A stretch of DNA of 64,000 nt, from positions 1,612,001 to 1,676,000 of the forward strand of contig NZ_CP012559.1 of assembly GCF_000831645.3 (NCBI RefSeq), given 5' to 3'. This DNA comes from Companilactobacillus heilongjiangensis (GTDB lineage: Bacteria > Bacillota > Bacilli > Lactobacillales > Lactobacillaceae). The notes below the pieces were generated by a model. That model was not told where the DNA came from, did no database searches, and worked only from the letters and a program-made list of their open reading frames with translations. Shown piece after piece: positions 1,879-59,894 of the stretch. Positions within the stretch are counted from its first letter, which is position 1. Each line of letters begins with the position of its first letter. Both the position numbers and the translations under genes were made by a program.

Positions 1879-2060
1879 GCCGTCTCCGGTTGTCAGTAAA
1901 TATAGTCCCCAGTGAGGACCGGTCCGAGCCAAGGTCTCGTACCTCGATTTGAAGCCTTGCCATAGTTCGGCAAGTCTCCAAAGTCGCCCTGTGGTGTAAA
2001 GGCTGAAGCCTTAACGCCACCTCCACTGTTTACTATATTTACTGACAACCTCCGACTATT
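1879..2060 (+). repeat. Structured intergenic repeat, copy R1
   Basis: Full copy in the orientation that starts GCCGTCTCC and ends CCGACTA. The outer arms at 1888-1906 and 2032-2050 are 19/19 complementary. Inside lie hairpin 1 (GTCCGAG/CTCGTAC, loop CCAAGGT), hairpin 2 (CTTGCC/GGCAAG) and hairpin 3 (TAAAGGC/GCCTTAA, loop TGAA). It lies about 20 bases past the prsA terminator, in the same sense as prsA. Confidence 0.9.
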
Positions 2061-2464
2061 TTATTTCTGACAACTAACTTCTTCCATAGATTTGATGCAG
2101 TGGTTTTCAAATTAGACCTGCAATTAAAAAATATTTTTATAACTTTAAAAGAAGCTTGCTTGGCTATTCATTAAATTAATAATTGTTCATACATCCTAAA
2201 CAAAAAGTTCAAGCTGACAACGCTAATATCTCCGTTACTTAAAAACTATTTTTAAGAATTCCTCAATATCTGATACAACAGCCACAATAATAATTATAAT
2301 TAGAATGAATGTTGTTATTTAACATCAATGACATTAAGTTTTATCTTGGGATTCAACCAGAGTCTCTCCATTCCTTATTGTTAACTAAAATTAACTTTCT
2401 AGAATTACAATTTATTAACTCTATTAATTTATTTTTAGAGGCTCTTTATTGCGGCTTCTTTCAC
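2061..2464. other. Long AT-rich intergenic region upstream of usp
   Basis: About 400 bases with no convincing gene. A 60-codon open frame at 2309-2491 lacks a ribosome site and has no recognisable protein character. I see no strong hairpin-plus-T signal. Structured RNAs are known upstream of usp genes in some lactobacilli, but I cannot recognise one here by eye. Confidence 0.5.
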
Positions 2465-2492
2465 TTGTGTTGCCATTTTGTACATGTATGAT
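2465..2492 (+). promoter_or_regulatory. Likely usp promoter
   Basis: TTGTGT at 2465-2470 and TATGAT at 2487-2492 with a 16-base spacer. It would give a leader of about 18 bases before the strong AGGAGG site of the stress protein gene. Confidence 0.5.
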
Positions 2493-2516
2493 AATGGTAT
2501 TAGGAGGAAATATTTT

Positions 2517-2978
2517 ATGGATAATAAAGAAATTCAAGATCCTTTAATTTACAGACGTATTTTACTTACGGTTGATGAGGACGATCACGAGTCTACTACC
2601 CGTGCTTTTCGTTTTGCCATCACCCTTGCTCACGATTACGATGCCACTTTGGGAATTGTTTCTGTTATGGAAAGTGAAGATATTAACATTTTCGATTCTT
2701 TAACTCCATCTAAAATCAGTGAGAAACGTGAAGATTTAAAGAAATCAGTTCAAGAATACGTTAAAGCAGCTGAAGATAATGGTTTGAAAAAGGTTGAACC
2801 GCTTGCTTATGAAGGTGGCGACGTTGACGACGTCATCCTAGAACGTGTGATTCCAGATTTTAAACCGGATTTGATAGTAACTGGAGCTGACACTCAATTC
2901 CCCCACTCTAAAATTAGTGGTGCGATTGGACCTAGATTAGCTAAGCGTGCCCCTGTTTCAGTTATTGTCGTTCGTTAA
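2517..2978 (+). CDS. Universal stress protein UspA family
   Basis: A 153-residue single-domain UspA protein. The family binds ATP or AMP in an alpha/beta fold and modulates stress survival. Visible features are the N-terminal strand RRILLTVD with the first acidic residues, and a C-terminal strand region LIVTGAD...APVSVIVVR. The usual G-2x-G-9x-G-S/T nucleotide loop is degenerate, so it may not hydrolyse ATP. I start at the ATG at 2517 because AGGAGG lies at 2503-2508; the upstream ATG at 2478 has no such site. mntH follows after 53 bases in the same direction with no terminator between, so the two probably form one transcript. Confidence 0.9.
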   Translation: MDNKEIQDPLIYRRILLTVDEDDHESTTRAFRFAITLAHDYDATLGIVSVMESEDINIFDSLTPSKISEKREDLKKSVQEYVKAAEDNGLKKVEPLAYEGGDVDDVILERVIPDFKPDLIVTGADTQFPHSKISGAIGPRLAKRAPVSVIVVR

Positions 2979-3031
2979 AAAAGGAACCTCACAAGTAGAA
3001 TTAACAAACTACGAAAAGAGGTCTTGTCATT

Positions 3032-4399
3032 TTGAAACACAAGAATGATAAAGAACACGAAAGCAAATTCATCGAGGATACTGGCAAGCAACGAAAGAGT
3101 CTTGACGAGATCAATGGCTCAATCGATGTTCCTGACAATGCCGGTTATTTTAAAACTCTATTAGCCTACACTGGACCAGGGGCGCTAATTGCGGTTGGTT
3201 ACATGGATCCTGGTAACTGGATTACATCTATCGGTGGTGGTGCGCAATTCAAATACATCCTGCTGAGCGTTGTTTTACTATCTAGTTTAATTGCGATGTT
3301 GTTGCAGGCAATGTCAGCTCGCTTAGGTATTGTTACCGGACGTGACTTGGCACAACTAACCCGTGAACGAACTTCAAAAACTGGTGGCCTTATCCTGTGG
3401 ATTATCACTGAGGCTGCTATCATGGCAACTGATGTGGCGGAAATCATCGGTTCTGGTATTGCACTGGAATTGCTATTCGGATTTCCACTGATTCTCGGTA
3501 TTACTATCACTGCCTTTGATGTTTTGATCTTATTGTTCCTAATGCGTTTAGGATTTCATAAAATTGAAGCGATTGTCGCTACTTTAGTTGCCGTTATCCT
3601 GTTTGTCTTCGCATATGAAGTATTTTTGTCAAAGCCTGATGCCTTAGGTGTTTTGGGTGGATATGTCCCTAGAGCTAAAATTCTAACTAATCAACCAATG
3701 TTGTACATGGCCCTAGGTATCGTTGGTGCAACCGTTATGCCCCATGACTTATACCTTGGTTCATCAATTTCTCAAACTAGAAAGTATGATATTCATGATC
3801 ATGCTTCAGTCAAAAAGACAATTAGGTTTACGATTGCTGATTCAAATATTCAATTAACACTCGCCTTTGTCGTCAATAGTTTGTTACTGATCTTAGGTGC
3901 TGCTTTATTTTACGGAACTCATAGTGATTTAGGCCGTTTCGCCGACTTATTCAATGCTTTAAGTGATTCGAAAATCGTTGGTGCGATTGCCAGCCCAATG
4001 TTGAGTATGCTTTTCGCAATTGCCCTCCTAGCTTCTGGTCAAAGTTCAACAATCACCGGGACCCTTGCTGGACAGATGATTATGGAAGGATTTATTCACT
4101 TGAGAATGCCTCTTTGGGCACAAAGACTTTTAACACGTCTAATCTCAATCACCCCAGTTTTGGCCTTCGCCATTTATTACAAAGGTAACGAAGCTAAAAT
4201 TGAAAGTCTATTAACATTCTCACAGGTCTTCCTATCAATAGCGTTGCCATTTGCAATGATCCCATTGATTATCTTTACTAGTGATAAGAAGTTGATGGGG
4301 TCATTTGTTAATCGGAAATGGGTCAAGTATGTCTCTTGGGTCGTGGCTGTCATTTTGATTATTTTAAATCTTCAGTTGATTTGGACTACATTGTTTTAG
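3032..4399 (+). CDS. mntH: Manganese/divalent metal transporter, NRAMP family
   Basis: A 455-residue NRAMP transporter with about 11 membrane helices that takes up Mn(II) by proton symport. The metal-site motif DPGNW in helix 1 and [11 protein letters not shown] in helix 6 are both present, including the Met-Pro-His that favours Mn over Ca. The start is a TTG at 3032 with AAAGAGG about 10 bases upstream; no better start precedes the conserved region. A close paralogue lies at 31221-32594 with the same DEINGSI motif before helix 1. The stop codon is followed after four bases by repeat copy R2, with no classical terminator between. Confidence 0.94.
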
Positions 4400-4437
4400 G
4401 GTTTGCCGTTTCCAGAACTGAGAGTATTCATCTGCTG

Positions 4438-6323
4438 ATCGAGTAGGAGGTATCTCACGATACCGACCTCTCACACCACCGTACGTACGGTTCCGTATAC
4501 GGCGGTTCATTAATTTAAGCATTTTGCAAAGACTGGAGTCTTTTGGTCATGTCTATTAGGCCAAAAGATTCTAGCTTTTTCTTGCTTAGGGCGTGTTGCA
4601 CCACACTGCTGTGCGCTGTTCGCCAGTATCCTTTACTGGAGTTTGCACAGATAAACGCTTGACGCCGTGTCACGCCTAATTTAACCAACTTCCTATACTT
4701 TGCTTTGGGTCTTTTCCATGACTTCCAAATATATTGTCTAATACGTGCTCGCAACCAAGAATCAAGTTTTCTGATAAAATCCTTCATCGCACCAATTCCA
4801 TAGTAATTGAGCCATCCAACCATCTTTTGTCTTATTTCTTTCAGGATAACTTCAAGCTTTCGACCTCGATTCCTCTTTGTGAGTTTTCTTAGCGATTGCT
4901 TGACCCTCTTTTCGGCTTGATAGCTCGGGCGTAAACATACGCCCTTGTTGGTAAAGCCTAAAGAGAATCCTAAAAACTTTGACTTTGTTGGCACTGTAAT
5001 TTTGGTCTTTTCTTGGTTTAAAGTTAGCTTTAAACCACTTTCTAGGAACCTTGAAATACTATTCAGGACTCTTCTTCCTGCTCGTTTACTTTTGACATAA
5101 ATATTACAGTCATCAGCGTAGCGGACGAATTTATGACCACGGGTGGTCAATAACTTGTCCAGCTCATTTAAATATATGTTGGCCAAGAGTGGAGAAAGGT
5201 TACCGCCTTGAGGCGTACCTTTTTCCATTTCTTGAAATAGTTTTCCATCCATTACGCCACTGGTTAGGAACTTACGAATTAGATTTAACAACCATTCATC
5301 ATCAGTATATTGCTTGATGAACTTGATAAGTAAATCATGGTTCACCGTGTCGAAGTAAGACTTTAGGTCAAGGTCTATCACAACGTGATAGCCTTGCTTG
5401 TAAAAACTCACAACCTGTTTTACTGCGTCATGGGCACTTCGATTTGGTCTAAATCCAAAGCTGTTGTTAGAGAAGATTTTCTCAAAGATAGGGCTCATAA
5501 CCTGCGCCACTGCTTGTTGTACCACACGGTCGAAGACTGTTGGTATACCAAGCTTACGCATAGTCCCATTTGGCTTAGGTATTTCTACCCTTTTGACGGG
5601 GCTAGGTTTATAAGTTGAATCACTTAAGGACTTAAGTAGTGCTTCCTTGTTCTTACGAATATAGTCGAACAAGTCATAGACAGTCATTCCATCTATGCCA
5701 GCTCCACCCTTGTTTTCCTTGACTCGCTTATAGGCTCTATTGAGATTATTTTCATCTAAAACTAGTTGCTTAAATGAAATGCCATTCTTATTCGTATTTT
5801 CGCCAGAAGCGGCGCTACGTACCATCATTTGTTCACATATGTGAGCATTAAAATGGTCGAATTTACATTCTATTTTCTGCGATTGTCGCATCGCTTCCAC
5901 CTCCAATATCGAAAAGAATTATTAATGTTCAGTCCTTCGTCGCAAAGCGACTACTATGACCTCTGCTGACTTCTGCATCGTTCAGTTAGACATCACGGCC
6001 TAATTTGTCTGTAGGACTCATTTCGAGTCCTTGCCAGACATTCGATACAGACCTCCCTGGGTAAGAACGTTAACTTTCGTACCATGTAGCTGTTGGCTCT
6101 ACTTGATTTGCCCTTGCAGTAGTGATCGGATTTGAATTCCGCGGCACCCTTATCCTGCAAATCCAGCCTTATAGCCACTTCTTGTACATCAGCTCGGTAC
6201 TTTGCCTTGGACTTCCTTCAGATTCCACCTCACGATGGACACCCTTGTCCTAAGCTAGTGATTCCGACTACTACGGTTCACAGAGGACTTTCACCTCTAA
6301 GTTAACGCCCATGCCAGGCGCAC
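4438..6323 (-). mobile_element. Group II intron with maturase ORF
   Basis: An 1886-base intron read on the minus strand. The 5' end is GTGCGCC at 6323. Domain V (about 4468-4507) shows the CCGTATACGG and CCGTACGTACGG stem typical of bacterial group II introns. Domain VI follows and the 3' end is ...TCGAT at 4438, giving the usual terminal AY. Both boundaries are fixed by comparison with uninterrupted repeat copies: the empty site reads CCGCG-CAGCAG, as in copy R7. The element is therefore a complete, probably recent insertion within a structured repeat. Confidence 0.9.
4515..5891 (-). CDS. ltrA: Group II intron reverse transcriptase/maturase
   Basis: A 458-residue intron-encoded protein. Reverse transcriptase blocks run from about residue 60 to 320, with GIPTVFDRVVQQA, the NSFGFRPNRSAHDA block and the catalytic YADD. 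They are followed by a maturase X domain with the WLNYYGIGAM stretch. No HNH endonuclease domain is visible at the C-terminus, as in introns that insert into single-stranded or hairpin DNA. I start at the ATG at 5891 (MRQSQ), which has GGAGG eight bases upstream; the frame also opens at 5906. It splices and mobilises the host intron. Confidence 0.93.
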   Translation of the reverse strand: MRQSQKIECKFDHFNAHICEQMMVRSAASGENTNKNGISFKQLVLDENNLNRAYKRVKENKGGAGIDGMTVYDLFDYIRKNKEALLKSLSDSTYKPSPVKRVEIPKPNGTMRKLGIPTVFDRVVQQAVAQVMSPIFEKIFSNNSFGFRPNRSAHDAVKQVVSFYKQGYHVVIDLDLKSYFDTVNHDLLIKFIKQYTDDEWLLNLIRKFLTSGVMDGKLFQEMEKGTPQGGNLSPLLANIYLNELDKLLTTRGHKFVRYADDCNIYVKSKRAGRRVLNSISRFLESGLKLTLNQEKTKITVPTKSKFLGFSLGFTNKGVCLRPSYQAEKRVKQSLRKLTKRNRGRKLEVILKEIRQKMVGWLNYYGIGAMKDFIRKLDSWLRARIRQYIWKSWKRPKAKYRKLVKLGVTRRQAFICANSSKGYWRTAHSSVVQHALSKKKLESFGLIDMTKRLQSLQNA

Positions 6324-6536
6324 CGCGGTACGGTTCGAGCCAAAGAGCGGTCTCGAACCTCGGTTGAAGCCTTTCCAAAACCCGGAAAGTCTCCAACACG
6401 CCCGGTGGTGTAATTGCTAAAGCAATAACGCCACTTTCGCTGCTGATGAATACCCTCAGTTCTTCCAACTAATTTATTTTTTAAATTAATAAATAATCAA
6501 ACTAAAAATATTTTTTAAAATTAACTTATACAATTC

Positions 6537-6581
6537 AAAAAAGTTTAGCAACCAATCAATCTGGTTACTAAGCTTTTTCGT
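6537..6581 (-). terminator. Bidirectional terminator 3' of rsgA
   Basis: Arms AGTTTAGCAACCA and TGGTTACTAAGCT flanked by A and T runs. It ends rsgA leftward and could also stop rightward transcription from the repeat. Closely related hairpins occur at 8046-8088 and 30522-30561. Confidence 0.8.
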
Positions 6582-6621
6582 TTCAGTTAAGGTCATCTAG
6601 ACATTTCAGCTAAACCACAGT

Positions 6622-7692: not shown

Positions 7693-7739
7693 TTTTTATT
7701 TTTCCCTTCGCGTTGGGCATACCCACAACTCGCGAGAAC

Positions 7740-7959: not shown

Positions 7960-7997
7960 GCCGTTTCCAGAACTGAGAGTATTCATCCAACTAATTT
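7960..7997 (+). repeat. Repeat remnant R3 (end fragment)
   Basis: GCCGTTTCC plus the arm AGAACTGAGAGTATTCATC, identical to the start of R2, joined directly to the far end CCAACTAATTT, which also matches R2. The whole interior is missing, so this is an internal deletion of an R2-like copy. Confidence 0.8.
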
Positions 7998-15271: not shown

Positions 15272-15459
15272 GCCGTCTACGGGCATCAGTAATATAGTCC
15301 TGCCATGAGGACCGGTCCGAGCCACAGTGCGGTCTCGAACCTCGGTTTGAAGCCTTTCCACAGACCGGAAAGTCTCCAAACTCGCCCTGTAGTGTAATGG
15401 CTAAAGCCATAACGCTACCTCCATGGCATGACTATATTACTGATACCCTTCGACTAGTT
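15272..15459 (+). repeat. Structured repeat copy R4
   Basis: Full copy in the divergent region between pbp and the pseudouridine synthase gene. Outer arms GGGCATCAGTAATATAGTC and GACTATATTACTGATACCC pair with one mismatch. Hairpin 2 is CTTTCC/GGAAAG, a compensated change from R1, and hairpin 3 is TAATGGC/GCCATAA. Confidence 0.9.
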
Positions 15460-15621: not shown

Positions 15622-15797
15622 CTAGCCTCCGGTTGTCAGTAATGCAGTCCGCAGTGCAAGTTGTGTTAGGCTTTAGCCCTTACACAACCGACGTATTTTG
15701 AGATTTGCGAACCTTGCAAATCTCAAAATCGAGGCGCGAGACCTTGGCTCGCACCGGTCGCACCGCAGACTGACATTACTGACAACCGGAGGCGGCA
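15622..15797 (-). repeat. Structured repeat copy R5
   Basis: Full copy of the CTAGCC...GGCGGC end type. Outer arms at 15629-15644 and 15774-15789 are 16/16 complementary and related to R1 and R21. Hairpin 1 has the short loop CCAAGGT when read on the minus strand. Its end touches the AAAGGAG ribosome site of the gene downstream. Confidence 0.9.
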
Positions 15798-19448: not shown

Positions 19449-19665
19449 AAAAAAACGCCTCTCTCAATAAACAGTTGTTCATTGAAAGAGACGAGATTTC
19501 CCGCGGTACCACTCTAATTGATTAATATCCACTCATTAATTGAATTATTTAATTTTATTAAGACGGGTGCGACTTGATCTTCGAAATGGCTAACTCTCAC
19601 CAACGCTTAGCCTCGCTTTAATTCTCACGATCAATTAATCCCTCTTTTGCACAAGTATGATAGCA
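19449..19665 (-). promoter_or_regulatory. T-box riboswitch of argS
   Basis: On the minus strand the antiterminator core AGAGTGGTACCGCGGG is followed by a terminator with CGTCTCTTTCAAT/ATTGAGAGAGGCG arms and eight T. Upstream, TTGATC/GATCAA closes a stem I with a GTGAGAA (kink-turn like) segment. The specifier is probably CGA in TTCGAAGATC, an Arg codon, but that assignment is by eye. Confidence 0.9.
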
Positions 19666-19703: not shown

Positions 19704-19887
19704 GCCGTCTCCAGGTCAGAGAATATTCACCTGCTATGCGGACCGGCTCGAGCCACAGTACGGTCTCGAGCCTCGGTTTGAAGCCTTGACACAGTTCGTC
19801 AAGTCTCCAAACTCGCCCGGTGGTGTAAGAGCTAAAGCTCTAACGCCACACCCACAGCGGGTAAATATTCTCTGCCCTTACGACTCT
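19704..19887 (+). repeat. Structured repeat copy R6
   Basis: Full copy. Hairpin 1 is a perfect GCTCGAG/CTCGAGC, hairpin 2 is CTTGAC/GTCAAG and hairpin 3 is TAAGAGC/GCTCTAA; all are compensated relative to other copies. The outer arms around AGAGAATATT are shorter and less perfect. It lies upstream of the argS leader, antisense to argS. Confidence 0.88.
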
Positions 19888-20122: not shown

Positions 20123-20302
20123 CAGTTGGAAGAGCTGGGAGCATTCATTGGCCGCGAAAGTGGCGTTATTGCTTTAGCAATTACACCACCGGACGTGTTG
20201 GAGACCTGCCGGTTTTGCAGGGCTTCAACCGAGGTTCGAGACCGCTCTTTGGCTCGGACCGTGCCGCGCAGCAGATGAATGCTCCCAGCTCTGGAGACGG
20301 CA
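20123..20302 (-). repeat. Structured repeat copy R7
   Basis: Full copy whose outer arms at 20132-20148 and 20275-20291 are 17/17 complementary. It starts (minus sense) 10 bases after the arcC stop codon in the same sense as arcC. Its sequence CCGCGCAGCAG shows the empty intron site seen filled in R2. Confidence 0.9.
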
Positions 20303-22490: not shown

Positions 22491-22689
22491 AACTAGTCGG
22501 AAGAGCTGGGAAATATTTGTGTGCCGTGGTAGTGGTATAAGTACGGGAGGAATCTCCCGTACTTATACCACCGGGCGTGTTTGGAGACTTGACGAACTAT
22601 GTCAAGACTTCAAACCGAGGTTCGAGACCGCACTTTGGCTCGGACCGTTCCGCACAGCTAGAGAATATTTTCCGGCTCTGGAGACGGCA
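22491..22689 (-). repeat. Structured repeat copy R8
   Basis: Full copy, 15 bases beyond the arcD stop codon and in its sense. Hairpin 3 is replaced by a longer one, GTGGTATAAGTACGGGAG against its complement. Hairpin 2 is CTTGAC/GTCAAG type. Nearly identical to R13 and to the ends of R9. Confidence 0.9.
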
Positions 22690-22704: not shown

Positions 22705-24117
22705 CTATATTTTAATTGCTCCTGTTGCGACCATGAAAACACTTATAATTGCGAAAGCTACGATCAAAATTGACCAGAAGATTTCCGCTTTAGTAAGCTT
22801 TCCACCATCTAAGTTGTAATCTTTCTTAGCTCGGTAATAGAAGTAAATTCCTGGTAGATAACCGATACAAACTAACATTAAGAAATGCAGTCCCGCTAAG
22901 ACAATGGCAATAACTTGAAAGGCAGCTGCGAAGATTCCTATCCAAAGTTGTTTCATATCTTTATTTTGGAGTGAAAATTTGATTTGGTATAAACCAACAA
23001 AGATATAGCAAACGACGATAGCTGCCGTACAAAGTGAAAGCGCAAAGTTATAAGCTTCTTGAGAGAACAATAGAACAACTAAAAACACTTGAATCAATGA
23101 AGCTGTTAACACCAATGAAAAGGTTGGTGCACCATTTTTATTCTTTTTACCAAATGAAGCTGGCAAGAGTTTTTCTTCAGCCATCAACATTGTCGTATCT
23201 GCTGGCAGCATTGTCCATGACAACCAAGCTCCAACGATTGCAACCACTAAACCAACGCCAATGAAAACGCCGCCCCATTTTCCGACCATTGCTTGGAAAA
23301 TATAAAGCATAGCTGGTTGATCGATTCGAGCTAACTCGCTTTGTGACAAGTAACCATATGGCAAAACTGATGCTAAAACATAAATAACTAATAAACTGAT
23401 AATTCCGATGATTGTAGCTTTTCCAGCATCATTCTTATCTTGAGCACGTGATGACAACATACTTGCTCCTTCGACACCTACGAAAACCCACATCATAATC
23501 ATCAAACAAGATCTAAACTGTCCACTGACACTAGTATTTCCTGCTACTCCAGAAGCCACGTTCGACCAGAAGTGAGCTGTGAAAATACCACCTTTGAAAA
23601 CAAAGATACCTATTACAATAAATGCAAACAGTGGAATCAACTTACAAATAGTAATGATCGTATTCATTGCTGCAGCTGATTCAACACCGCGATTAACAAT
23701 AAAGGTCAACGTCCAGGAAACGATACTCGCGAAGATTACCGACGGAATGTTTTGTCCACCTTTAAAGACTGGGAAGAAATAACCTAACGAACTCATCAAT
23801 ACAGTCGCGAAGGCCACATTTCCGAGCCATGCACTTAACCAATACCCCCATCCGCTGACAAAGCCAGCAAAGTTGCCGAATCCAGCTTGTGCATAAGCTT
23901 GGATCCCTTCTGATTCAGGTTGTTTCAGTAACAAGTTATTCAGCGATAAAGCCAACATCATGATACCGAACCCAACCACTAACCATGCTAGTAAAACCGG
24001 ACCAGGGGCAGCTCCTCCTGCAAGTGAGCTCGTTAAGGTAAATACACCTGAGCCAATGGAACTCGTAACAACAGCCGCTGTCAGAGCTCCTAGTGATAGA
24101 CCCTTCTTTTCTTCCAT
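22705..24117 (-). CDS. arcD: Arginine/ornithine antiporter
   Basis: A 470-residue APC-superfamily transporter with about 12-13 membrane helices that exchanges external arginine for ornithine. The first helix motif SSIGSGVFTLTSSLAGGAAPGP is present in part as SIGSGVF followed by GGAAPGP. The ATG at 24117 (MEEKKG) has AAAGGAAT ten bases upstream; a longer frame to 24168 lacks a ribosome site. The upstream region contains GTTGATA...TATCAAC, an inverted repeat around the likely -10 box. It is separated from arcB by a terminator and repeat R9, so it probably has its own promoter. Confidence 0.92.
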   Translation of the reverse strand: MEEKKGLSLGALTAAVVTSSIGSGVFTLTSSLAGGAAPGPVLLAWLVVGFGIMMLALSLNNLLLKQPESEGIQAYAQAGFGNFAGFVSGWGYWLSAWLGNVAFATVLMSSLGYFFPVFKGGQNIPSVIFASIVSWTLTFIVNRGVESAAAMNTIITICKLIPLFAFIVIGIFVFKGGIFTAHFWSNVASGVAGNTSVSGQFRSCLMIMMWVFVGVEGASMLSSRAQDKNDAGKATIIGIISLLVIYVLASVLPYGYLSQSELARIDQPAMLYIFQAMVGKWGGVFIGVGLVVAIVGAWLSWTMLPADTTMLMAEEKLLPASFGKKNKNGAPTFSLVLTASLIQVFLVVLLFSQEAYNFALSLCTAAIVVCYIFVGLYQIKFSLQNKDMKQLWIGIFAAAFQVIAIVLAGLHFLMLVCIGYLPGIYFYYRAKKDYNLDGGKLTKAEIFWSILIVAFAIISVFMVATGAIKI

Positions 24118-24146
24118 ACTAATCATTCCTTTAGCGCATAGTGCTA

Positions 24147-24178
24147 GTTGATAATTTATTATAAACATTCATATCAAC
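24147..24178 (-). promoter_or_regulatory. Inverted repeat at the arcD promoter
   Basis: GTTGATA (24147-24153) and TATCAAC (24172-24178) are perfect inverted arms flanking a TATAAT read on the minus strand (complement of 24158-24163). It could be an operator or promoter element. A near copy of this whole segment occurs at 34919-34975. Confidence 0.45.
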
Positions 24179-24240
24179 AGTATTTCAGTAACTAACGTTG
24201 GCTGAATATTAAGGGATTTTAATATTTTTACATTCGACTA

Positions 24241-24309
24241 ATTAGTCGGAAGAGTTGGAAAATATTTGTGTGCCGTGGTAGTGAATATTTTCCAGCTCTG
24301 TAGACGGGA
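24241..24309 (-). repeat. Repeat copy R9, internally deleted
   Basis: Both conserved ends are present, but only about 69 bases remain: GAAAATATTTGTGTGCCGTGGTAGTGAATATTTTC keeps the outer arms while the three hairpins are lost. The breakpoint lies inside GTGGTAGTG, the edge of hairpin 3 in R8 and R13. Confidence 0.85.
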
Positions 24310-24354
24310 TATTTAACTAGCACTACACGTTTCCTTTATTAAAAATTCAGAATG

Positions 24355-30338: not shown

Positions 30339-30521
30339 ATTGGTCTCCCTCTTTTCTTTAAAAAATATTAATACCAGTATACCTTTACTAACAAAATTTT
30401 TGTACTTTTATAGATTTCAAACTGAACTATTACAAAAAAAAAACAGGCTGTGACATAACTATTCTTGTCTTAAATATGCAGCATAAACGTGCAACAAAAC
30501 ATAGATTTTTACGCTTAAAAC

Positions 30522-30561
30522 AAAAAAACTAGCAATCCAAAATCGGATTACTAGTTTTTTT
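30522..30561 (-). terminator. Terminator of tetR-mntH2 region
   Basis: AAACTAGTAATCCGAT against its near-perfect complement with T runs on both sides; functions in either direction. Related to the hairpins at 6537 and 8046. Confidence 0.8.
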
Positions 30562-30600
30562 GCCTTAATACTCGAAAGCTGACGATGTTTTGTCACACTT

Positions 30601-31212
30601 TCATTTTTTAATCAACTGAATCAGTAGATGTATCTGTGACATTGTTTTATCACGAATATCATCACTGATTATTTTTTTATTTTTAATAATTAATTCTTCA
30701 TAAATAGATCTCTGCAAAATTGAAACTACCGTATCGACCAAACTGCCTATCTCTTCGTCATTGGCAATCTTGGTTTTATCCTGAATCGACTTCACGCTGA
30801 TAACTAAACTGCTCTTCAGTCGATCCAAAATTTGGGAAATCCATTTCGACTGGTCATTTGATAAAATTGCACGCTCTCGAATCGTAATCATAAAGGAACG
30901 ATAACCTTCTTCATTTGAGAATAGCTCACATATTCCTTCATAAATACTATCAATCAACTTTTCAAAACCAGCTAAGTCATTTATATCAAGATGTATTTCA
31001 TGAACGAAATGTTCTCGATAATCCATTCCTTTTTGAACAATTAAATCCAAGATTTGTTTCTTACCCTTTGGAAAATAATAGTAAAGTGAACCATCAGATA
31101 TATCAACGGAACGACTAATTTCACGAGTTGTTGTGGCTTCGAAGCCTTTTTTAACAAATAAATCTTGAGCAACTTCTAAAATTTTTTCTTTTTGGATGTC
31201 GCTTTTCTTCAT
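30601..31212 (-). CDS. TetR/AcrR family regulator next to mntH2
   Basis: A 203-residue TetR protein with the N-terminal HTH (ATTTREISRSVDISDGSLYYY, in two parts TTTREISRSVDIS and GSLYYYFPKG). The ligand domain matches QacR/YcdC-like regulators only in general layout. It starts eight bases after the mntH2 stop codon, so the two genes share a transcript. A perfect 7-bp inverted repeat upstream of mntH2 is the natural operator candidate. That would make metal uptake subject to a TetR-type sensor rather than only to MntR, which is unusual. Confidence 0.86.
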   Translation of the reverse strand: MKKSDIQKEKILEVAQDLFVKKGFEATTTREISRSVDISDGSLYYYFPKGKKQILDLIVQKGMDYREHFVHEIHLDINDLAGFEKLIDSIYEGICELFSNEEGYRSFMITIRERAILSNDQSKWISQILDRLKSSLVISVKSIQDKTKIANDEEIGSLVDTVVSILQRSIYEELIIKNKKIISDDIRDKTMSQIHLLIQLIKK

Positions 31213-32867: not shown

Positions 32868-32944
32868 TTTACATTTAAAAAATTAAGCTCAATACGAATT
32901 ACCTGTTTAATTCTATTATTTAAAAAACTAAAAAAATAGAATCA

Positions 32945-33122
32945 AACTAGTCGGAAGAACTGAGAGTATTATCAGCAGTGAAAGTGATGTAAGGACTAAA
33001 GTCCTTACATCACCGGACGAATTTGGAGACTTGCGGTTTATGCAAGGCTTCAAATCGAGGGGCGAGACCTTGGCTCGACCCGGTCCGCACAGCAGATAGA
33101 TACTCTCAGTTCTGGAGACGGC
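32945..33122 (-). repeat. Structured repeat copy R11
   Basis: Full copy ending two bases before the glnA stop codon, in the sense of glnA. Outer arms AGAACTGAGAGTAT and ATACTCTCAGTTCT pair perfectly. Hairpin 3 is GTAAGGAC/GTCCTTAC, a compensated variant. Hairpin 1 has the short loop. Confidence 0.9.
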
Positions 33123-33124
33123 AA

Positions 33125-34611: not shown

Positions 34612-34797
34612 GCCGTCTCCAGGACTGAGAACATTTACCTGCTATGCGGACCGATCCGAGCCGAAGTGCGGTCTCGAATCTCGGTTTGAAGCCTTACCAA
34701 AACCCGGTAAGTCTCCAAACTCGCCCGGTGGTGTAACGGCTAAAGCCGTAACGCCACACCCACAGCTGGCAAATGTTCTCAGTCCTTCCGACTAATT
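34612..34797 (+). repeat. Structured repeat copy R12
   Basis: Full copy upstream of the glnA promoter, antisense to glnA. Outer arms AGGACTGAGAACATTT and AAATGTTCTCAGTCCT are perfect. Hairpin 2 is CTTACC/GGTAAG and hairpin 3 is TAACGGC/GCCGTAA, both compensated variants. Confidence 0.9.
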
Positions 34798-34918
34798 TAT
34801 TTTAATAAATAATTAAATGAAAATATCCAATTGTCATAAATAGATTACAAATTGTATTGTTAGAATACTGGTCACAATTTATTTCTTTCAGTTTTCATTT
34901 TCACAATTACTGAATAAA

Positions 34919-34975
34919 ACATAGTACTAGTTGATAATTCATTATAAACATTTGTATCAACTATATTTCAATATC
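34919..34975. repeat. Duplicate of the arcD promoter segment
   Basis: TAGTTGATAATTCATTATAA and what follows match 24143-24195 (upstream of arcD) at most positions, including the GTTGATA/TATCAAC arms. The match continues on the far side of repeats R13 and R9. Confidence 0.7.
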
Positions 34976-34997
34976 TAAAAGGAACTAATCATAGACA

Positions 34998-35194
34998 AAC
35001 TAGTCGGAAGAGCTGGGAAATATTTGTGTGCCGTGGTAGTGGTATAAGTACGGGAGGACCTCCCGTACTTATACCACCGGACGTGTTTGGAGACTTGACG
35101 AACTGTGTCAAGGCTTCAAACCGAGGTTCGAGACCGCTCTTTGGCTCGGACCGTTCCGCACAGCTAGTGAATATTTCCCAGCTCTGTAGACGGA
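34998..35194 (-). repeat. Structured repeat copy R13
   Basis: Full copy upstream of guaC, nearly identical to R8, with the extended hairpin 3 (GGTATAAGTACGGGAGG and complement). The flank after its end (CTTAACCAGCACTAC) matches the flank of R9 near arcD. Confidence 0.9.
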
Positions 35195-35264
35195 ATACTT
35201 AACCAGCACTACAAATTGCATATGAAAATTTTATCATAATTAAACCCATTAATCGTATAAATAG

Positions 35265-36442: not shown

Positions 36443-36626
36443 CTAGCCTGAGGGTTCGAGGGATGGGGTCAGCAGTGATAGTGGTGTTAGGTCGGTGAAC
36501 TTCCGGCCTTACACCACAGGACGTATTTTGAGACGTGGTCTTCGGCTCAAAATCGAGGGTCGAGACCGCACTTTGGCTCGAGCCGGTCCCACAGCAGACC
36601 CCAATCCCTCGAATCCTCAGGCGGCA
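36443..36626 (-). repeat. Structured repeat copy R14
   Basis: Full copy of the CTAGCC...GGCGGC end type, directly after the guaC terminator. Outer arms at 36448-36470 and 36597-36620 pair over about 22 bases with one bulge and one mismatch; their sequence is unlike other copies except for distant likeness to R19. Confidence 0.9.
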
Positions 36627-40647: not shown

Positions 40648-40831
40648 GCCGTCTCCGGCGCTGATAGTATTCCCCTGCTGTGCGGAACGGCTCGAGCCAA
40701 AGAACGGTCTCGAACCTCGGTTTGAATCCTTGCAAAAAACGCAAGTATCCAAACTCGTCCGGTGGTGTAATGGCTAAAGCCATAACGCCACTTCCACTGC
40801 GAGTAAATACTATCAGCGCCTCCGACTAGTT
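40648..40831 (+). repeat. Structured repeat copy R16
   Basis: Full copy in the divergent region between the transferase and the response regulator. Outer arms GGCGCTGATAGTATT and AATACTATCAGCGCC are perfect. Hairpin 2 is shortened to TTGC/GCAA with matched flanking changes. Confidence 0.9.
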
Positions 40832-40942
40832 ATTTCTTTTCTAATTGGATATAAAAAGTTTAGATAATTTATGGAAACTACTGATTTAACCTCATTTCTA
40901 ATGAATTAGTAGATATTCGGATTGTAATAAAAAATGATGGAA

Positions 40943-40982
40943 TATACTCAGTAATTCACATCTCTGGAGACGGGAGACGGCT
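40943..40982 (-). repeat. Repeat remnant R17
   Basis: TCTCTGGAGACGGGAGACGG carries the GCCGTCTCC end (minus sense) with a short duplication of GAGACGG; the preceding ATATACTCAG is a weak arm remnant. It abuts the response regulator's ribosome site. Confidence 0.6.
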
Positions 40983-49106: not shown

Positions 49107-49288
49107 AGCTCCGGGTGCCAGTACAATGCTTAGCCTGCTGTGCGACCGGTGCGAGCCAAGGTCTCGCACCTCGATTTTGAACTTCGAGAAAATCACTCGA
49201 ATTTCAAAATACGTCGGTATTGTAAGGGATAAATCCCTAACAATACCTGCACTGCTGGCTAAACATTGTACCGTCACCCTCCGACTAT
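49107..49288 (+). repeat. Structured repeat copy R18
   Basis: Full copy of the AGCTCCGGG end type. Hairpin 1 is a perfect GTGCGAG/CTCGCAC with loop CCAAGGT. Hairpin 2 is recast as TTTTGAACTTCGAG against CTCGAATTTCAAAA, shared with R20. Hairpin 3 is TAAGGGA/TCCCTAA. Outer arms pair over about 26 bases with three mismatches. Confidence 0.9.
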
Positions 49289-49517: not shown

Positions 49518-49709
49518 CTAGCCAGAGCTTGCGAGGGATTGAGTTCAGCAGTGATAGTTATTGTTAGGCTGGCGGTTTTCCAGTCTTACATAACAGGACG
49601 TCTTTTGAAATTCGCGAACTTTGCGAAGTTCAAAAGCGAGGGTCGAGACCGCACTACGGCTCGAGCCGGTCCCACAGCGAACTCAATCCCTCGCAAGCTC
49701 TGGCGGCAT
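49518..49709 (-). repeat. Structured repeat copy R19
   Basis: Full copy of the CTAGCC...GGCGGC end type. Outer arms 49522-49546 and 49679-49703 are 25/25 complementary, the longest perfect arm in the window, with a sequence found in no other copy. Hairpin 3 reads GTTATTGTTAGGCTGG, more degenerate than elsewhere. Confidence 0.9.
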
Positions 49710-54622: not shown

Positions 54623-56044
54623 ACCCACTATTAATAATACAAGAGTAGCGACGTAGATATTATGCAATCCTGAAAAAAGAATTTGTCTCATTTTGGGTAA
54701 AAGCTGATGTGGCAAGGAGTTAGCGGTCTGTGGATCAATCAATTTATTCATCATATCGACCGTAATATGCTTGTTTCCGGCAGCACCTTTTGCTAAAGCT
54801 GTATTTAAAACGATTCCGTAAACTGAAACCATCATTGATTGACCAATAGTTCTCAATAAAGTATTGAAACTTGTGGCAACTCCGACATTCTCCGGTTCAA
54901 CAACAGTCTGTGATGTAACGGTAGTTGTCGTGATTGTTAGACCAAAACCAAGTCCAGCGATTCCGGCTAACATGCAGAAGTACCAGAACGGTGTTGTTGG
55001 TCCAGCAGCTAATAATAATGCATTAGCAATGGCTAAGAAGAATAGACTGATATAAATGACTCGATTGGGAGCCATTTTTTTTATCAATGAACCAGCCCAG
55101 AATGATCCAAAAATCCAAACGATTGAACTTGGTGTAACGGCGAATCCACCCATTGATGGACTCAAACCTAGAATACCTTGCATCCAAGTTGGAATATAAG
55201 CTTCGAATCCAATCAAGAAGCCACTGACCAACAAAGCTAAAACATTTTGAATAACGAAAGTTTTATTCTTAAATAATTCCAAAGGTAAAATTGGATCAGC
55301 AACATGTTTTTCAACATGAATAAAGACAAATATCGAAATAATTGAAACTAAAACTAAACCAATTGGCAAAACCATTGCGCTAGTACCAATATTTTGTAAT
55401 GCCAGCATCAATGGCAACAATACTAAAATCAACATGATAGTTCCCATGTAGTCAATTCTAATTTTCTCATGCTCTCGTTTGTCTTCTTTAAAGAAGATCC
55501 AAATCAAAGCCATCGTCAATAAACCAACTGGTAAATTGATTAAGAAAACCCAGTGCCAGCTCAAGCGTTCAACGATAAATCCACCTAATAACGGTGCTAT
55601 AACGGCAGCAATCCCCCACGCTGAACCGTTTAAGCCCAGGATACGAGCACGTTTTTCCAATGGATATATATCCGCAATAATCGTAAATGTTAACGGTTGG
55701 ATTGCTCCAGAACCGATACCTTGGATTACACGCGCCAAGATTAACGTCAACATTGAATTCGACATCGCACACAAAGTCGAACCAATGACGAAGATCACTA
55801 AACCAATCAATAGAACTGGTTTACGACCGACTATATCTGATAATTTTCCATAAATTGGTGTCGCTACGGCAGTCATCAGCAGATAAACTGAGAAGACCCA
55901 GTTCATCAAACTGACCCCATGTAGACTCCCGATAATTGTCGGCATCGCAGTCGAAACGATAGTTCCCTCAATTGCCGTCATGAATGTCGCAATAAATACC
56001 GCAATCGTGACGATTACAACATTTGACTGATTTTTTTGTTCCAT
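54569..56044 (-). CDS. MFS drug exporter, DHA2 (EmrB/QacA) family
   Basis: A 491-residue transporter with 14 predicted helices. Motif A is YGKLSDIVGRKPVLL and motif C resembles GSAWGIAAVIAPLLGGFI. Family members export toxic cations or drugs with the proton gradient; the substrate is unknown. GGGAGGA precedes the ATG. It lies downstream of metK beyond a terminator and overlaps the PAP2 gene tail to tail by 54 bases, so read-through of either gene would make antisense RNA to the other. Confidence 0.92.
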   Translation of the reverse strand: MEQKNQSNVVIVTIAVFIATFMTAIEGTIVSTAMPTIIGSLHGVSLMNWVFSVYLLMTAVATPIYGKLSDIVGRKPVLLIGLVIFVIGSTLCAMSNSMLTLILARVIQGIGSGAIQPLTFTIIADIYPLEKRARILGLNGSAWGIAAVIAPLLGGFIVERLSWHWVFLINLPVGLLTMALIWIFFKEDKREHEKIRIDYMGTIMLILVLLPLMLALQNIGTSAMVLPIGLVLVSIISIFVFIHVEKHVADPILPLELFKNKTFVIQNVLALLVSGFLIGFEAYIPTWMQGILGLSPSMGGFAVTPSSIVWIFGSFWAGSLIKKMAPNRVIYISLFFLAIANALLLAAGPTTPFWYFCMLAGIAGLGFGLTITTTTVTSQTVVEPENVGVATSFNTLLRTIGQSMMVSVYGIVLNTALAKGAAGNKHITVDMMNKLIDPQTANSLPHQLLPKMRQILFSGLHNIYVATLVLLIVGLILNAFELKNRKILGSK

Positions 56045-56057
56045 TAAATAATTCCTC

Positions 56058-56110
56058 CCATAAAAAAAGAGACCTTCCCTAAAGTAAAAACTTTAAAGAA
56101 CGCCTCTGTA
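56058..56110 (-). terminator. Terminator of metK
   Basis: Minus-strand AGAGGCGTTCTTTAAAG and CTTTAGGGAAGGTCTCT pair imperfectly, with seven T after them. Confidence 0.65.
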
Positions 56111-56118
56111 ATCACCGA

Positions 56119-57312
56119 TTAAATTTTCAAGAAACTCTTAATATCATTAACTTTATCAAGTTTTTCCCATGGTAAATCGATATCTGTACGTCCGAAGTGG
56201 CCATATGCGGCCGTCTTCTTATAGATTGGTCTTTGTAGATCAAGCATTTTAATGATACCTAGTGGACGTAGGTCGAAGAACTTGTTGATAACTTCCTCAA
56301 GTTGTTCTTCGGAATAATCACTAGTACCAAATGTATCAACGTGAATTGACACAGGTTTTGCCACACCGATAGCGTAAGCAATTTGAATCTCAACCTTTTC
56401 AGCTACACCAGCAGCTACAAGGTTTTTAGCAATGTATCTGGCAGCGTAACTAGCTGAACGGTCAACTTTAGTAGCATCCTTACCTGAGAAGGCACCACCA
56501 CCGTGACGAGCAAAACCACCGTATGTATCAACGATAACTTTACGTCCTGTAAGTCCGGAATCTCCTTCTGGACCACCGATAACGAAACGACCAGTAGGAT
56601 TAATTAAAATCTTTGTCTTGTCGTCCATCATGTTTGCTGGGACAACTTCATCGATAACATATTTCTTGATATCTTTTTGAACTTGTTCCAAACTTGCTTC
56701 AGCTTTGTGCTGTGTACTCAAAACAATTGTATCGACACGAACTGGATGATCATTTTCATCATATTCAATTGTGACTTGTGACTTAGCGTCCGGCATCAAG
56801 TAGTCGATAGTACCGTTCTTTCTAACTTCGGCCGTCTTTCTCATCAACTTGTGAGCGAGAGAAATTGGCAATGGCATGAATTCTTTAGTTTCATTTGTAG
56901 CGAAACCGAAAACAAAACCTTGATCTCCGGCACCGATTTGATCCAATGGATCCTTATCGTCGTTACCACGTTCTTCCAATGCATCGTCAACACCCTGAGC
57001 AATATCAGGAGATTGTTCATCTAGTGCAACTAATACGGCACAACTATTACCATTGAAGCCTGGGTTTGAACCATCATAGCCAATATCGGTAATTGTTTTA
57101 CGTACGACACTTTGAATATCAACATATGCAGAAGTTGAAATTTCACCTACAACTAGTACTAAACCAGTTGTAACAGTTGTCTCGCAGGCAACACGCGCAT
57201 CTTTATCCTTTGCTAAAATAGCATCGAGAATTGCATCACTTATTTGATCAGCAACTTTATCTGGATGTCCTTCTGAAACTGATTCAGAAGTAAATAAATA
57301 ATTTTTTGACAT
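56119..57312 (-). CDS. metK: S-adenosylmethionine synthetase
   Basis: A 397-residue enzyme making SAM from methionine and ATP. The N-terminal [13 protein letters not shown], the ATP loop [10 protein letters not shown] and the later [16 protein letters not shown] (phosphate loop) are intact. I start at ATG 57312 (MSKNYLF), since the SMK box overlaps exactly the ribosome site AAGGTGG in front of it; the frame opens 14 codons earlier inside the riboswitch. High SAM should block its translation. Confidence 0.97.
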
Positions 57313-57316
57313 ATCT

Positions 57317-57378
57317 TTTCCACCTTTTCGGTTACAGGGCCTCTCCTTAAACAAAAAAAGGATCCCATCAGGAACCTT
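57317..57378 (-). promoter_or_regulatory. SMK box (SAM-III) riboswitch of metK
   Basis: Minus strand: CCCTGTAACCGAAAAGGTGG matches the conserved SMK core, including the ribosome site. Pairing as in the known fold is possible: TTCC with GGAA (P1), GGG with CCC (P2) and TCCTT with AAGGA (P3). P3 has a long U-rich loop, a variant. Confidence 0.87.
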
Positions 57379-57479
57379 TTAATAGGTTAACACAAAATTA
57401 ATTCATTTTCATGAAAAAACTCGGTTTGACGTGCAACTTTTTCTACATTAATATGTTTTTATGAGCCAAAGGAGTTCAC

Positions 57480-58154
57480 ATGGATAAATTAAAATCTAAA
57501 AAAATATTATCAGCCTTTATTGAATTCATTAGCTACCATATTTTTCCGTTTATCTTCATTTTCGTCCACGATTTGAATAATTACTCACTACACGGATTTT
57601 TAATCATCATGGTGGCGATGGTAGCTTTATATAAGGAATACATTTTAACGTTGAATCCCAATAAGTACTTCCATATTTTATACAGTGTCATCTATATATT
57701 ATTGGCTGCGCTGTCGTTGCATTCACTGAATCTTTTCGTAATAGTTTTAGTCTTTGCACAATTAGCTTTCCTATATATGACAAGATATTTACCAGATAAA
57801 TATCAAAACTTGGTTTCATTAGTGGAAGATTTCGTTGTTCCAAGTTTCATGTCAATAGCTTTAGCCTTCACTTACATGCACTTTATTTCGGTAAACTTTG
57901 TTGTCCCACTATTGTTGGTCAATCTAGCGACCGTGTTGATCAATTACTTTGAAGGAACTAAAGCTGATTACATCGAATTAGCAGTTATTTCAGGTCTTTG
58001 TGTGATTTTATTCCTGCTAAATTACATCAGCCTGTGGACAGCCTTAGCAATCATCGTATTTATAGTTGCGATGTCATTATTGAAAAAATATAAAAATTTC
58101 AACCAGTCGAATCTTTTTTATCGAGTTATTGGCAATTTGATTCTTGTTGTTTAG
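57480..58154 (+). CDS. Polytopic membrane protein of unknown function
   Basis: A 224-residue protein with six or seven hydrophobic helices and short loops. AAAGGAG lies before the ATG. Charged residues are few: DKLKSKK at the start, YLPDKY and the LLKKYKNF end. I see no motif of a known transporter, rhomboid or CAAX protease. It is divergent from metK. Its stop codon TAG is shared with the first bases of repeat R20, so no spacer remains between gene and repeat. Confidence 0.78.
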   Translation: MDKLKSKKILSAFIEFISYHIFPFIFIFVHDLNNYSLHGFLIIMVAMVALYKEYILTLNPNKYFHILYSVIYILLAALSLHSLNLFVIVLVFAQLAFLYMTRYLPDKYQNLVSLVEDFVVPSFMSIALAFTYMHFISVNFVVPLLLVNLATVLINYFEGTKADYIELAVISGLCVILFLLNYISLWTALAIIVFIVAMSLLKKYKNFNQSNLFYRVIGNLILVV

Positions 58155-58332
58155 CTCCGGGTACAAAAAAAGATGAAGTCTGCTGTGCGACCGACTTGAG
58201 CCAAGGTCTCAAGTCTCGATTTTGAACTTCGAGAAAATCACTCGAATTTCAAAATACGTCGGTATTGTAATGGCTAAAGCCATAACAATACTTGCACTGC
58301 GGACTTCATCTTTTTTGTACCCTCCGCCTTTT
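58153..58332 (+). repeat. Structured repeat copy R20
   Basis: Full copy beginning inside the stop codon of the gene before it, same sense. Outer arms are GGGTACAAAAAAAGATGAAG and its complement with one bulged A; the T-rich right arm could act as a terminator. Hairpin 1 ACTTGAG/CTCAAGT is fully compensated relative to R18, while hairpin 2 is identical to R18. Confidence 0.92.
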
Positions 58333-58427
58333 TTGTATTGGGCAGTGGATTAGTTTAACTAATGGATATTTCTCATTTCCTTAAATTCAACTAAAATCCA
58401 TATATATATTAAAAGAAAAAAATCGGC

Positions 58428-59649
58428 GAATTTTATAATCAAGTTAGCCACTTTCAATAAAAGCTCAAAATAAAAACACCAAGACGAAAAAATCAGGTAT
58501 CATTGGAGTTCCTACACAAACAATGAAAGAGGTTTTTCGTCTTGATGCAAGAAAATGATACCATAATACGACCTAAGGGACACCATTTAACTGAAATTGA
58601 ACGTGGTGAAATAGCTTCGCTTCACCTTTTGGGATTCTCAAATCGTAAGATTGCTCACGCCGTTGGCGTTTGCCCTCAAACTATTAATAATGAGATCCGC
58701 AGAGGGACCGTAAGACAGGTTAAAAAGGTTAATGGGAAACAATATTTCTCTAATGATTATTACCCTGATACCGCTCAATTACGTTATGACACGCTGCGTA
58801 AGCAGTGTCATCGACCTTCTAAGTTTAATCGAGTTAAACAATTCCTAAGCTACTTTGTAGAACAGTTCAAACAGGGGTGGTCTCCAGATATAATCGCAGG
58901 TAGATCACGTGTCGATGGGTTATTCTTTAAAGATGAAATGGTATCAACTACCACTCTTTATAAGTACATCGATGAACAACGTTTAGAGATACGTAATATA
59001 GACTTAACCGACAAAATGAATAGATCTACCAAGCTACACGTTTCGAAGAAACATAAGCGTCTATTGGGTAGAAGTATCGAGGAACGTCCTGAGAGCGTTG
59101 ACTTGCGAGAAGATTTTGGTGACTTTGAAATTGATACTATCGTTGGTAAGAGAAATGGTCACGAGAGCGTAGTCTTAACACTTATTGAGCGTAAATCCAG
59201 ATTCGAGATAATGCGACTTATTGACGGTAGAGATGCCGACTCTGTTGATTACGCTATGGAAGAGATCAAACATAATTACGGTCACATTATCAACTCGATA
59301 ACCGCAGATAATGGTCCTGAATTTGCTAATCTCGATTCTGTTATGTCTGGAGTTTCAGATGTTTATTTTGCACATCCATATACTTCCTCAGAAAGAGGAA
59401 CCAATGAAGCACATAATAGAATGATTCGTCGTGACTTGCCCAAAGGGCTGTCACTCGATTCTATTGCTCCAGATTTAGTATCCTCTATTGAATCAAAGCT
59501 CAATGATATGCCTAGAAAGTTGTTGAACTACAAAACTCCACGGGAACTATTCACTAGTTTCTGTGGAGTTTAGAAATGCACTTTTCTGGCACTGATATAT
59601 TTCGTATTTATTTTTTGGACAAGTGGCTAACTTGTTCTTGTAATTTTCG
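58428..59649 (+). mobile_element. IS30-family insertion sequence
   Basis: About 1.22 kb. CAAGTTAGCCACTT at 58440-58453 is inverted at 59621-59634 (AAGTGGCTAACTTG), with weaker matching outward (about 26-base imperfect terminal repeats). It encloses one transposase gene. Exact ends and target duplication could not be fixed by eye. Confidence 0.85.
58545..59573 (+). CDS. IS30-family transposase
   Basis: A 342-residue DDE transposase, apparently intact. The N-terminal HTH (LTEIERGEIASLHLLGFSNR, then KIAHAVGVCPQTI) binds the ends. The catalytic triad lies in FEIDTIVGKRNG, TADNGPEFAN and SSERGTNEAHNRMIRR. AAAGAGG is 12 bases before the ATG at 58545; a TTG one codon earlier is an alternative. IS30 elements are often active and frequently insert near palindromes; this one lies 95 bases from R20 and 60 bases from R21. 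Confidence 0.94.
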   Translation: MQENDTIIRPKGHHLTEIERGEIASLHLLGFSNRKIAHAVGVCPQTINNEIRRGTVRQVKKVNGKQYFSNDYYPDTAQLRYDTLRKQCHRPSKFNRVKQFLSYFVEQFKQGWSPDIIAGRSRVDGLFFKDEMVSTTTLYKYIDEQRLEIRNIDLTDKMNRSTKLHVSKKHKRLLGRSIEERPESVDLREDFGDFEIDTIVGKRNGHESVVLTLIERKSRFEIMRLIDGRDADSVDYAMEEIKHNYGHIINSITADNGPEFANLDSVMSGVSDVYFAHPYTSSERGTNEAHNRMIRRDLPKGLSLDSIAPDLVSSIESKLNDMPRKLLNYKTPRELFTSFCGV

Positions 59650-59710
59650 AAAGAAAAAAATCCATACAAAAGTGCTTTAACATCAATTAAAATTGAAGTT
59701 AACAATAAAC

Positions 59711-59894
59711 TTAGCCTCCGGTTGTCAGAAATATAGTCTGCAATGGAGGCGGCGTTACAGCTTTAGCCGTTACACCACGGGACGAGCTTGGAGACTTGCG
59801 GTTTTTGCAAGGCTTCAAGTCGAGGTTCGAGACCGCTCTTCGGCTCGGACCGGTCCCCATAGCAGAACTATATTTCTGACAACCGAAGGCGGCA
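59711..59894 (-). repeat. Structured repeat copy R21
   Basis: Full copy of the CTAGCC-like end type. Outer arms 59719-59737 and 59867-59885 are 19/19 complementary and related to R1 and R5. Hairpin 3 has the constant loop (CTTTAG on this strand). Confidence 0.9.

Follow-up and report, generated by a model that had tools for sequence, protein, structure and literature searches.

For bacterial miniature inverted-repeat transposable elements (MITEs), explanations usually invoke nothing but the ends. Two further kinds of repeat have to be considered alongside MITEs, namely the ERIC elements, which are about 127 bp long and feature a TA duplication and one hairpin-like palindrome, and bcr1 of the Bacillus cereus group, a structured, mobile-type repeat of about 150 bp residing in a Gram-positive genus. 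The family analyzed here consists of structured repeats found mainly between genes in a stretch of 64,000 nucleotides (in the following, the window) from the genome of Companilactobacillus heilongjiangensis, represented by a single contig of 2,790,548 bp (NZ_CP012559.1; the window corresponds to G000:C1:1612001-1676000, G000 denoting this genome). These repeats are best explained as a new and elaborate family carried by MITEs rather than as a regulatory RNA of a new class. We consider it likely that, in the clearest cases, the repeat is a three-hairpin DNA module within a MITE of approximately 320 bp, moved in trans by a transposase of the IS4 family. With ERIC elements, the family has in common the very high intergenic copy number and the folded state, and it is set apart from them by the ERIC features named above. 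The likeness to bcr1 is drawn from the description given.

The portion of the review literature on prokaryotic MITEs that is drawn on here (PMC10969869) lists QMITE2 of Coxiella burnetii with 7-9-bp direct repeats, 23-29-bp terminal repeats and 78 copies, as well as 711 copies of ERIC in Photorhabdus luminescens. Like the prokaryotic MITEs covered by that portion, the elements of this study are short, non-coding and intergenic in AT-rich DNA, and feature terminal inverted repeats, 7-9-bp duplications, a stable predicted fold and, for one type of unit (type a), ends common with an insertion sequence. Unlike the elements described there, they carry a multi-hairpin core that covaries over hundreds of copies and is combined with two or more different sets of ends, lie mostly tail to tail when they are close neighbours, and serve as a target of group II introns. 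Repetitive extragenic palindromes (REPs) and their paired form, the REPINs, resemble the family in high copy number, hairpins and inverted dimers, as far as the portion of PMC3733652 used here describes them. However, REPs and REPINs are 20-40 bp long, whereas the present repeat comprises about 190 bp, is associated with target duplications and was found without a Y1/RAYT match in two high-copy genomes. REPs of the CGTC type are said in the same portion of PMC3733652 to lack a dedicated transposase. No description of the repeat family was found in the open-access literature searched.

An earlier note on the window had reported 16 full copies of 175-200 bp sharing one fold. All 16 copies were recovered between positions 1879 and 59893, where they are distributed over both strands, and a strict motif (GAGCC, 2-9 bases, GGTCTC, 4 bases, CTCG) also recovered 16 out of 16. 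The copies of the window are about 175-195 bp long, and consist of a closed outer stem enclosing three hairpins (HP1, HP2, and HP3), an architecture borne out by RNAalifold and by alignment to a covariance model; RNAalifold placed 49 pairs in these 16 copies, 30 of them with changes on both sides. The covariance model of the core (R1) was used to align 110 copies, 99 of them from the own genome, six from C. huachuanensis (G010), three from a third Companilactobacillus species (G002), and two from C. nantensis (G006). In this alignment, which is fitted to the structure that was tested, 96.3% of the helix cells were paired, compared to 85.9% in shuffles, and 403 cells with both-sided changes were counted versus 103 in shuffles, none of the 500 shuffles being as high. 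Both-sided changes affected 26 out of 39 pairs, and sliding the partner by 1-3 columns lowered the pairing to between 31% and 41%. The covariation claimed previously is thus far above shuffle controls. Furthermore, the statement that no named RNA is recognizable agrees with the Rfam search, which returned no match over any window copy, neither at the gathering score nor at E ≤ 1. For 11 distant loci, searched at the gathering score, no match fell on the repeat relatives, the sole match being glmS elsewhere in L275.

Other parts of the earlier description have to be narrowed. The outer stem is indeed self-complementary, but its sequence differs widely between copies; from one copy to another, the arms often bear no relation to each other and are still self-complementary; several sub-groups have a common arm. 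Conserved positions were found at the ends of the repeat: the left end features T-GCCG[T/C]C, and the right end G[A/G]CTA followed by a T-rich stretch. These flank analyses were based on 93 of the 99 own-genome copies, short copies and those near the ends of the analyzed stretches being left out, and 68 of the 93 were anchored on the left and 89 on the right. The location between genes holds for most copies, but three of the 93 overlap the end of a predicted open reading frame (ORF). Likewise, the proposed length of 175-200 bp is valid for full copies, but the mobile unit reaches further, and truncated as well as core-deleted copies also exist.

Regarding prevalence, the strict motif was detected 548 times in the own genome, 476 times in C. 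huachuanensis, 351 times in G002, and 270 times in C. nantensis. Ten other genomes of the genus contained between 5 and 39 copies, and 22 out of 36 contained none; a reversed-pattern control gave zero matches in all 36 Companilactobacillus genomes. Assuming an average length of 190 bp, the 548 copies would account for an estimated 100 kb or so of the own genome, and thereby for much of its intergenic DNA. Related designs were also picked up by the looser model R1 in several motif-free genomes (39 in G031 and 23 in G023, for instance); R1 matched in 31 of the 60 genomes searched, the own genome included (E ≤ 0.01), and in 32 of 395 genomes sampled across the order, belonging to 9 out of 80 sampled genera (E ≤ 1e-4). 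Counts of R1 matches are lower bounds from 150 upwards in one search, from 57 per genome in the search of 60 genomes, and from 8 per genome in the search across the order. Other genomes, mostly of Companilactobacillus (L044-L059), contain related designs resembling the repeat in ends and outer stem, some of them without HP1. In a genome of another family (L275 and L276), two copies feature GAGCC-TAT-GGTCTC together with an outer stem of great length. A plasmid search with one query copy returned one weak match, covering 35% of the query, in Limosilactobacillus reuteri. In viral contigs, at least 120 stretches match the strict motif, which we take to be chance in so large a collection.

Inspection of the junctions revealed that the unit is larger than the 175-200-bp repeat. 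Type a units are bounded by the terminal repeats CTRAAGGTTGAAAG, carry the core just inside the left end, continue into a right tail of about 110 bp, and reach a total of about 320 bp. In G010, type a ends (≤1 mismatch) were counted 522 times versus 6 times for a control pattern. An exact flank duplication of 7-9 bases was present in 10 of the 17 units of ordinary size from this genome (L284-L300), and exact target duplications of at least 7 bases in five of eight further type a readings; one-base shifts were allowed in both counts, so that the chance rate there is some fold higher than the 0.05% of random pairs reaching at least 7 of 8 without shifts. Duplications of 8 out of 8 without shifts were obtained for 3 of 19 type a readings, chance pairs being among these readings. 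The lengths of the 25 type a readings in G010 ranged between 196 and 334 bp for 22 of them, one being 86 bp long and two, of 454 and 488 bp, spanning a nested or neighbouring element. Core-deleted type a units of 196, 205, and 242 bp each feature their own deletion and duplication and, therefore, look like products of deletion after insertion, and not like an amplified core-less line. In one type a unit (L316 152-639), a further small inverted-repeat element is inserted in HP1.

Type c units are bounded by the ends TACGCGTGGTGCTAGTT, comprise about 220-370 bp, and showed no clear target duplication. In both types, the module occupies the same position, approximately 25-30 bp inside the left end, after the common stretch GTTAA-TATGCCG. 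The b group, delimited by a rough criterion applied to the 3' arm, includes 35 of the 93 copies; short overlaps at a few of its junctions are only suggestive. Taken as MITEs, the units are short, non-coding and present in many copies; types a and c possess terminal inverted repeats, and type a additionally possesses a target duplication and ends common with (broken) IS4-family elements in G010 and G020. The earlier note had named a match to a catalogued MITE as an outcome that would speak against its proposal: the module is indeed MITE-borne, but no catalogued family was found in the searches run.

The presence of the same module under two different terminal repeats also invites the explanation that the module is an independent mobile element, which was inserted into several unrelated MITEs, so that the MITE ends would be those of the hosts. 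Two copies without such ends (L087 1061-1390 and window 32883-33124), which by eye start at or near GCC and show short junction overlaps, would fit this as well. However, the same position and the common stretch in types a and c look like common descent with diverging ends, and an independent module therefore appears unlikely.

Candidates for the parent of the type a units were sought among intervals longer than a MITE, three of which (L281-L283) were fetched in G010 from the first 100 places listed with type a ends. L281, an interval of 1,052 bp featuring type a ends and a 7-base duplication, contains an IS4-family fragment (NF049925, E 7e-22; Pfam DDE_5 just below the cut-off). Matches to this fragment were detected in five of the 36 genomes of the genus (G010, G005, G020, G015, and G006). 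In G020, an element of 1,475 bp with perfect type a ends carries three pieces of the IS4 family, and G010 contains further such elements, one of which, with the ends CTAAAGGTTACAAG, carries an IS4-family piece scoring 266 bits compared to a cut-off of 250. According to the model search, the R1 core is absent in seven of the eight IS4-family loci; the eighth (L302, G005) has two cores outside the remnant, one located 47 bp past the insertion-sequence end and the other beyond a host gene. Thus, the type a MITEs represent the ends of an IS4-family element placed around a structured core that the IS4-family elements lack.

The movement of the units is also reflected in comparisons between species. 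Matching stretches of G000 were aligned with G010, G002, and G006, and a copy was present on one side or both in 72 of the resulting intergenic comparisons, 'no copy' meaning no match of model R1. Copies were located on one side only in 38 of these comparisons. A complete tail-to-tail pair faced no copy in nine comparisons (seven places), and the reverse direction was observed in four. At several sites, the empty state was precise to a few bases; four no-copy places retained residual arms or ends (L084 3480 and L089 3903 in G010, L087 9093 in G002, and window 34602 in G006). Only 2 of 24 copies at matching position and orientation were mutual best matches, indicating either fast replacement of copies or repeated insertion into the same spacers.

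Strong covariation together with conserved unpaired bases is what would be expected of a functional structured RNA (a leader, a small RNA or an mRNA 3' element) that spread to many transcripts and was kept by selection on the RNA fold, and this explanation has to be weighed against pairing kept in DNA. RNA under selection is expected to tolerate G-U on one strand. Test pairs were those with at least 88% Watson-Crick cells, 34 out of 39 in either of two alignments (A3 and A4). Sporadic G-T cells versus A-C cells numbered 16 versus 38 in A3, and 22 versus 20 in A4. Among near relatives of at least 85% identity (69 and 27 copy pairs), two-sided Watson-Crick replacements (88 and 47) were about equal in number to all one-sided changes (108 and 44). 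The lack of preference for G-T over A-C and the mostly two-sided Watson-Crick changes lean to pairing kept as DNA. On the other side, 35 of the 108 and 15 of the 44 one-sided changes lead to or from G-T, wobble columns included, and two consensus wobbles on the sense strand, T-G in HP3 (67 cells) and G-T in P1 (48 cells), would fit a sense-strand function.

The gene context was read in sampled stretches of the own genome, which were chosen around known copies and introns, so that densities in them are biased; ORFs that were occupied by a copy for more than roughly one third of their length were removed beforehand. The 93 copies were distributed over all four contexts of neighbour orientation (26, 16, 20, and 31), giving no indication of a consistent link to transcription. 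This lack of a preferred orientation, the frequent one-sided presence between species and the missing Rfam match all argue against the RNA explanation.

A further point on its behalf is provided by a single-copy relative of the fold, found as one R1 match each in ten genomes of another family. It comprises HP2, HP3 with the TAAA loop, and CACTTTCACCAC, and lies in the same spacer in all five genomes fetched (L270-L274), without an Rfam match. We take this spacer to be the one between infB and rbfA in Streptococcus-like genomes. In the separate R1 search of 60 genomes, no match was obtained for three members of the same genus. The relative is either a domesticated copy or a case of convergence, and it indicates that such a fold can persist without being mobile. 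In view of all these observations, a functional RNA spread to many transcripts seems improbable. The sequence comparisons lean to pairing kept in DNA, which would be maintained by selection on hairpins and by arm-to-arm copying, the two wobble positions keeping the matter from being closed. Of the two possibilities named by the earlier note, RNA or single-stranded DNA, the conserved covarying fold itself stands, but the data lean away from RNA.

The arrangement of neighbouring copies is a second peculiarity of the family. Among 34 own-genome neighbours less than 700 bp apart, counted in a sample of 284 kb (the window plus L078-L091), 30 were in plus-minus, one in minus-plus, one in plus-plus, and two in minus-minus arrangement. 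When the four genomes were pooled, 53 of 58 close neighbours were tail to tail, the other arrangements accounting for 1, 2, and 2. Outside this count, G010 loci around type a ends included one plus-plus (L285) and one minus-minus (L300) neighbourhood. The spacers of the pairs measure 150-335 bp between the cores and are mostly not common to pairs, and the members are often of different types; in one pair, read by eye (L085 7010-7616), each member has its own ends. A pair acting as a single replicating unit was, therefore, set aside. It is possible that the tail-to-tail habit results from targeted insertion beside a resident end, or from loss of other arrangements.

Such inverted pairs, the hairpins and a CGTC near the 5' end, as in the CGTC-tagged REPs of the portion of PMC3733652 consulted, recall a REPIN-like element that an HUH transposase (Y1/RAYT) copies in the form of folded single strands, with the tail-to-tail pair as the unit. 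However, Y1_Tnp (PF01797) was not found in the high-copy genomes G002 (351 copies) and G006 (270 copies), for which reason an HUH transposase was ruled against as the driver. Since, in addition, type a features 7-9-bp target duplications and IS4-family terminal repeats, the spacers of the pairs are mostly not common to them, and the members of a pair are often of different types, a REPIN-like origin is highly improbable. A reverse transcriptase of the retron type or of the type of diversity-generating retroelements was likewise rejected as the driver: RVT_1 was not found in the high-copy genomes G010 and G002, and the reverse transcriptase encoded in the window is that of a group II intron residing in the repeat.

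In the own genome, seven RVT_1 matches were obtained (window 4438-6323 and L078-L083). Six of them belong to near-identical group II introns, each residing in a copy at the same place, and the seventh intron, which is 75% identical, has the 5' arm of a copy on one side only. Based on the common position of the six introns, the repeat looks like their homing site.

Returning to the module within a MITE, we infer that an IS4-family transposase acts in trans on type a MITEs bearing the same terminal repeats. The own-genome copies, few type a ends of which are preserved, would have spread in the same way, and type c units would have been moved by another, unseen transposase. Selection may favour hairpins formed while the element is single-stranded in transposition or replication, and copying of one arm from the other would help to maintain the pairing. 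Several observations weigh against this explanation. All transposase copies examined are broken, and the search with the IS4-family fragment returned zero matches in the own genome, and zero in G002 as well. Only two of the 19 type a readings originate from the own genome, one of them core-less, and 7 of the 17 ordinary-sized units from G010 (L284-L300) lack an exact duplication. A type c parent was not found among the first 100 of 111 places with type c ends, where the one long interval (1.64 kb) contains an ordinary gene and no transposase, and no clear terminal repeats were found for the b group. The consensus wobbles, the share of one-sided changes involving G-T, and the single-copy relative described above belong on the same side.

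A more far-reaching proposal would be that the module is a portable DNA device, repeatedly picked up by different insertion-sequence ends, whose folded single-stranded DNA raises the transposition or survival of its carrier. It would also drive the tail-to-tail settling, serve as the intron homing site and, in Streptococcus-like genomes, have undergone a single domestication between infB and rbfA. We regard this proposal as rather doubtful.

The copies and related features of the window are compiled in Table 1.

Table 1. Copies of the structured repeat and associated features in the window (positions refer to the window).
Feature	Position	Strand	Remarks
Copy 1, full	1879..2058	+	Core 1907-2030
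Copy 2, 5' part (5' arm), cut by group II intron	4405..4437	+	Remainder at 6324-6471
Group II intron inside copy 2	4438..6323	-	Rfam; reverse transcriptase/maturase ORF 4515-5906, TIGR04416; junctions read
Copy 2, 3' part (HP1-HP3 and 3' arm)	6324..6471	+	
Remnant, 5' arm fused to 3' end, interior deleted	7960..7992	+	
Full copy	15273..15456	+	Tail-to-tail with copy at 15623
Full copy	15623..15796	-	Tail-to-tail partner of copy at 15273
Full copy	19704..19886	+	Pair with 20123 wholly absent in G002
Full copy	20123..20301	-	Partner of 19704
Full copy	22494..22688	-	Type c left end at 22705; empty site in G010 and G002
Type c MITE, structured core deleted	24132..24332	-	Both terminal repeats retained
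Full copy	32948..33122	-	Empty site in G010
Full copy	34612..34794	+	Left member of pair wholly absent in G002
Type c MITE unit, imperfect ends	34915..35218	-	Contains copy 35001-35194; terminal repeats
Full copy	35001..35194	-	Right member of pair with 34612
Full copy	36444..36625	-	No copy here in G010, G002, G006
Full copy	40648..40828	+	None in G006, pairs in G010 and G002
Full copy	49107..49287	+	
Full copy	49519..49707	-	Tail-to-tail with 49107
Full copy	58153..58330	+	
Full copy	59712..59893	-	

Facing the copy at 40648, the remnant of a minus copy was recognized at approximately 40940-40980 of the window, where a full pair resides in G010 and G002. Two features of the window are separate from the family. 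A second high-copy repeat at approximately 30447-30605 consists of a terminator-like hairpin with the ends GGCTGTGACATAA / TTTTGTCACA, and similar pieces occur in G002, G005, G006, and G009 and at L264 1561-1670. At 19484-19650, a T-box-like leader scoring 64.6 of 93 bits, below the gathering score, is located upstream of the arginine-tRNA ligase gene argS.

The oddities that remain in this family are its conserved core, the occurrence of that core under two different pairs of ends, and the preference of neighbours for a tail-to-tail arrangement. In the elements of this study, the interior of the MITE is the best-conserved part, featuring a multi-branched fold with two-sided Watson-Crick changes over hundreds of copies. 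This is a warning that covariation by itself does not prove an RNA, and it makes the family a testable case for selection acting on a DNA structure in the interior of a non-autonomous transposon.

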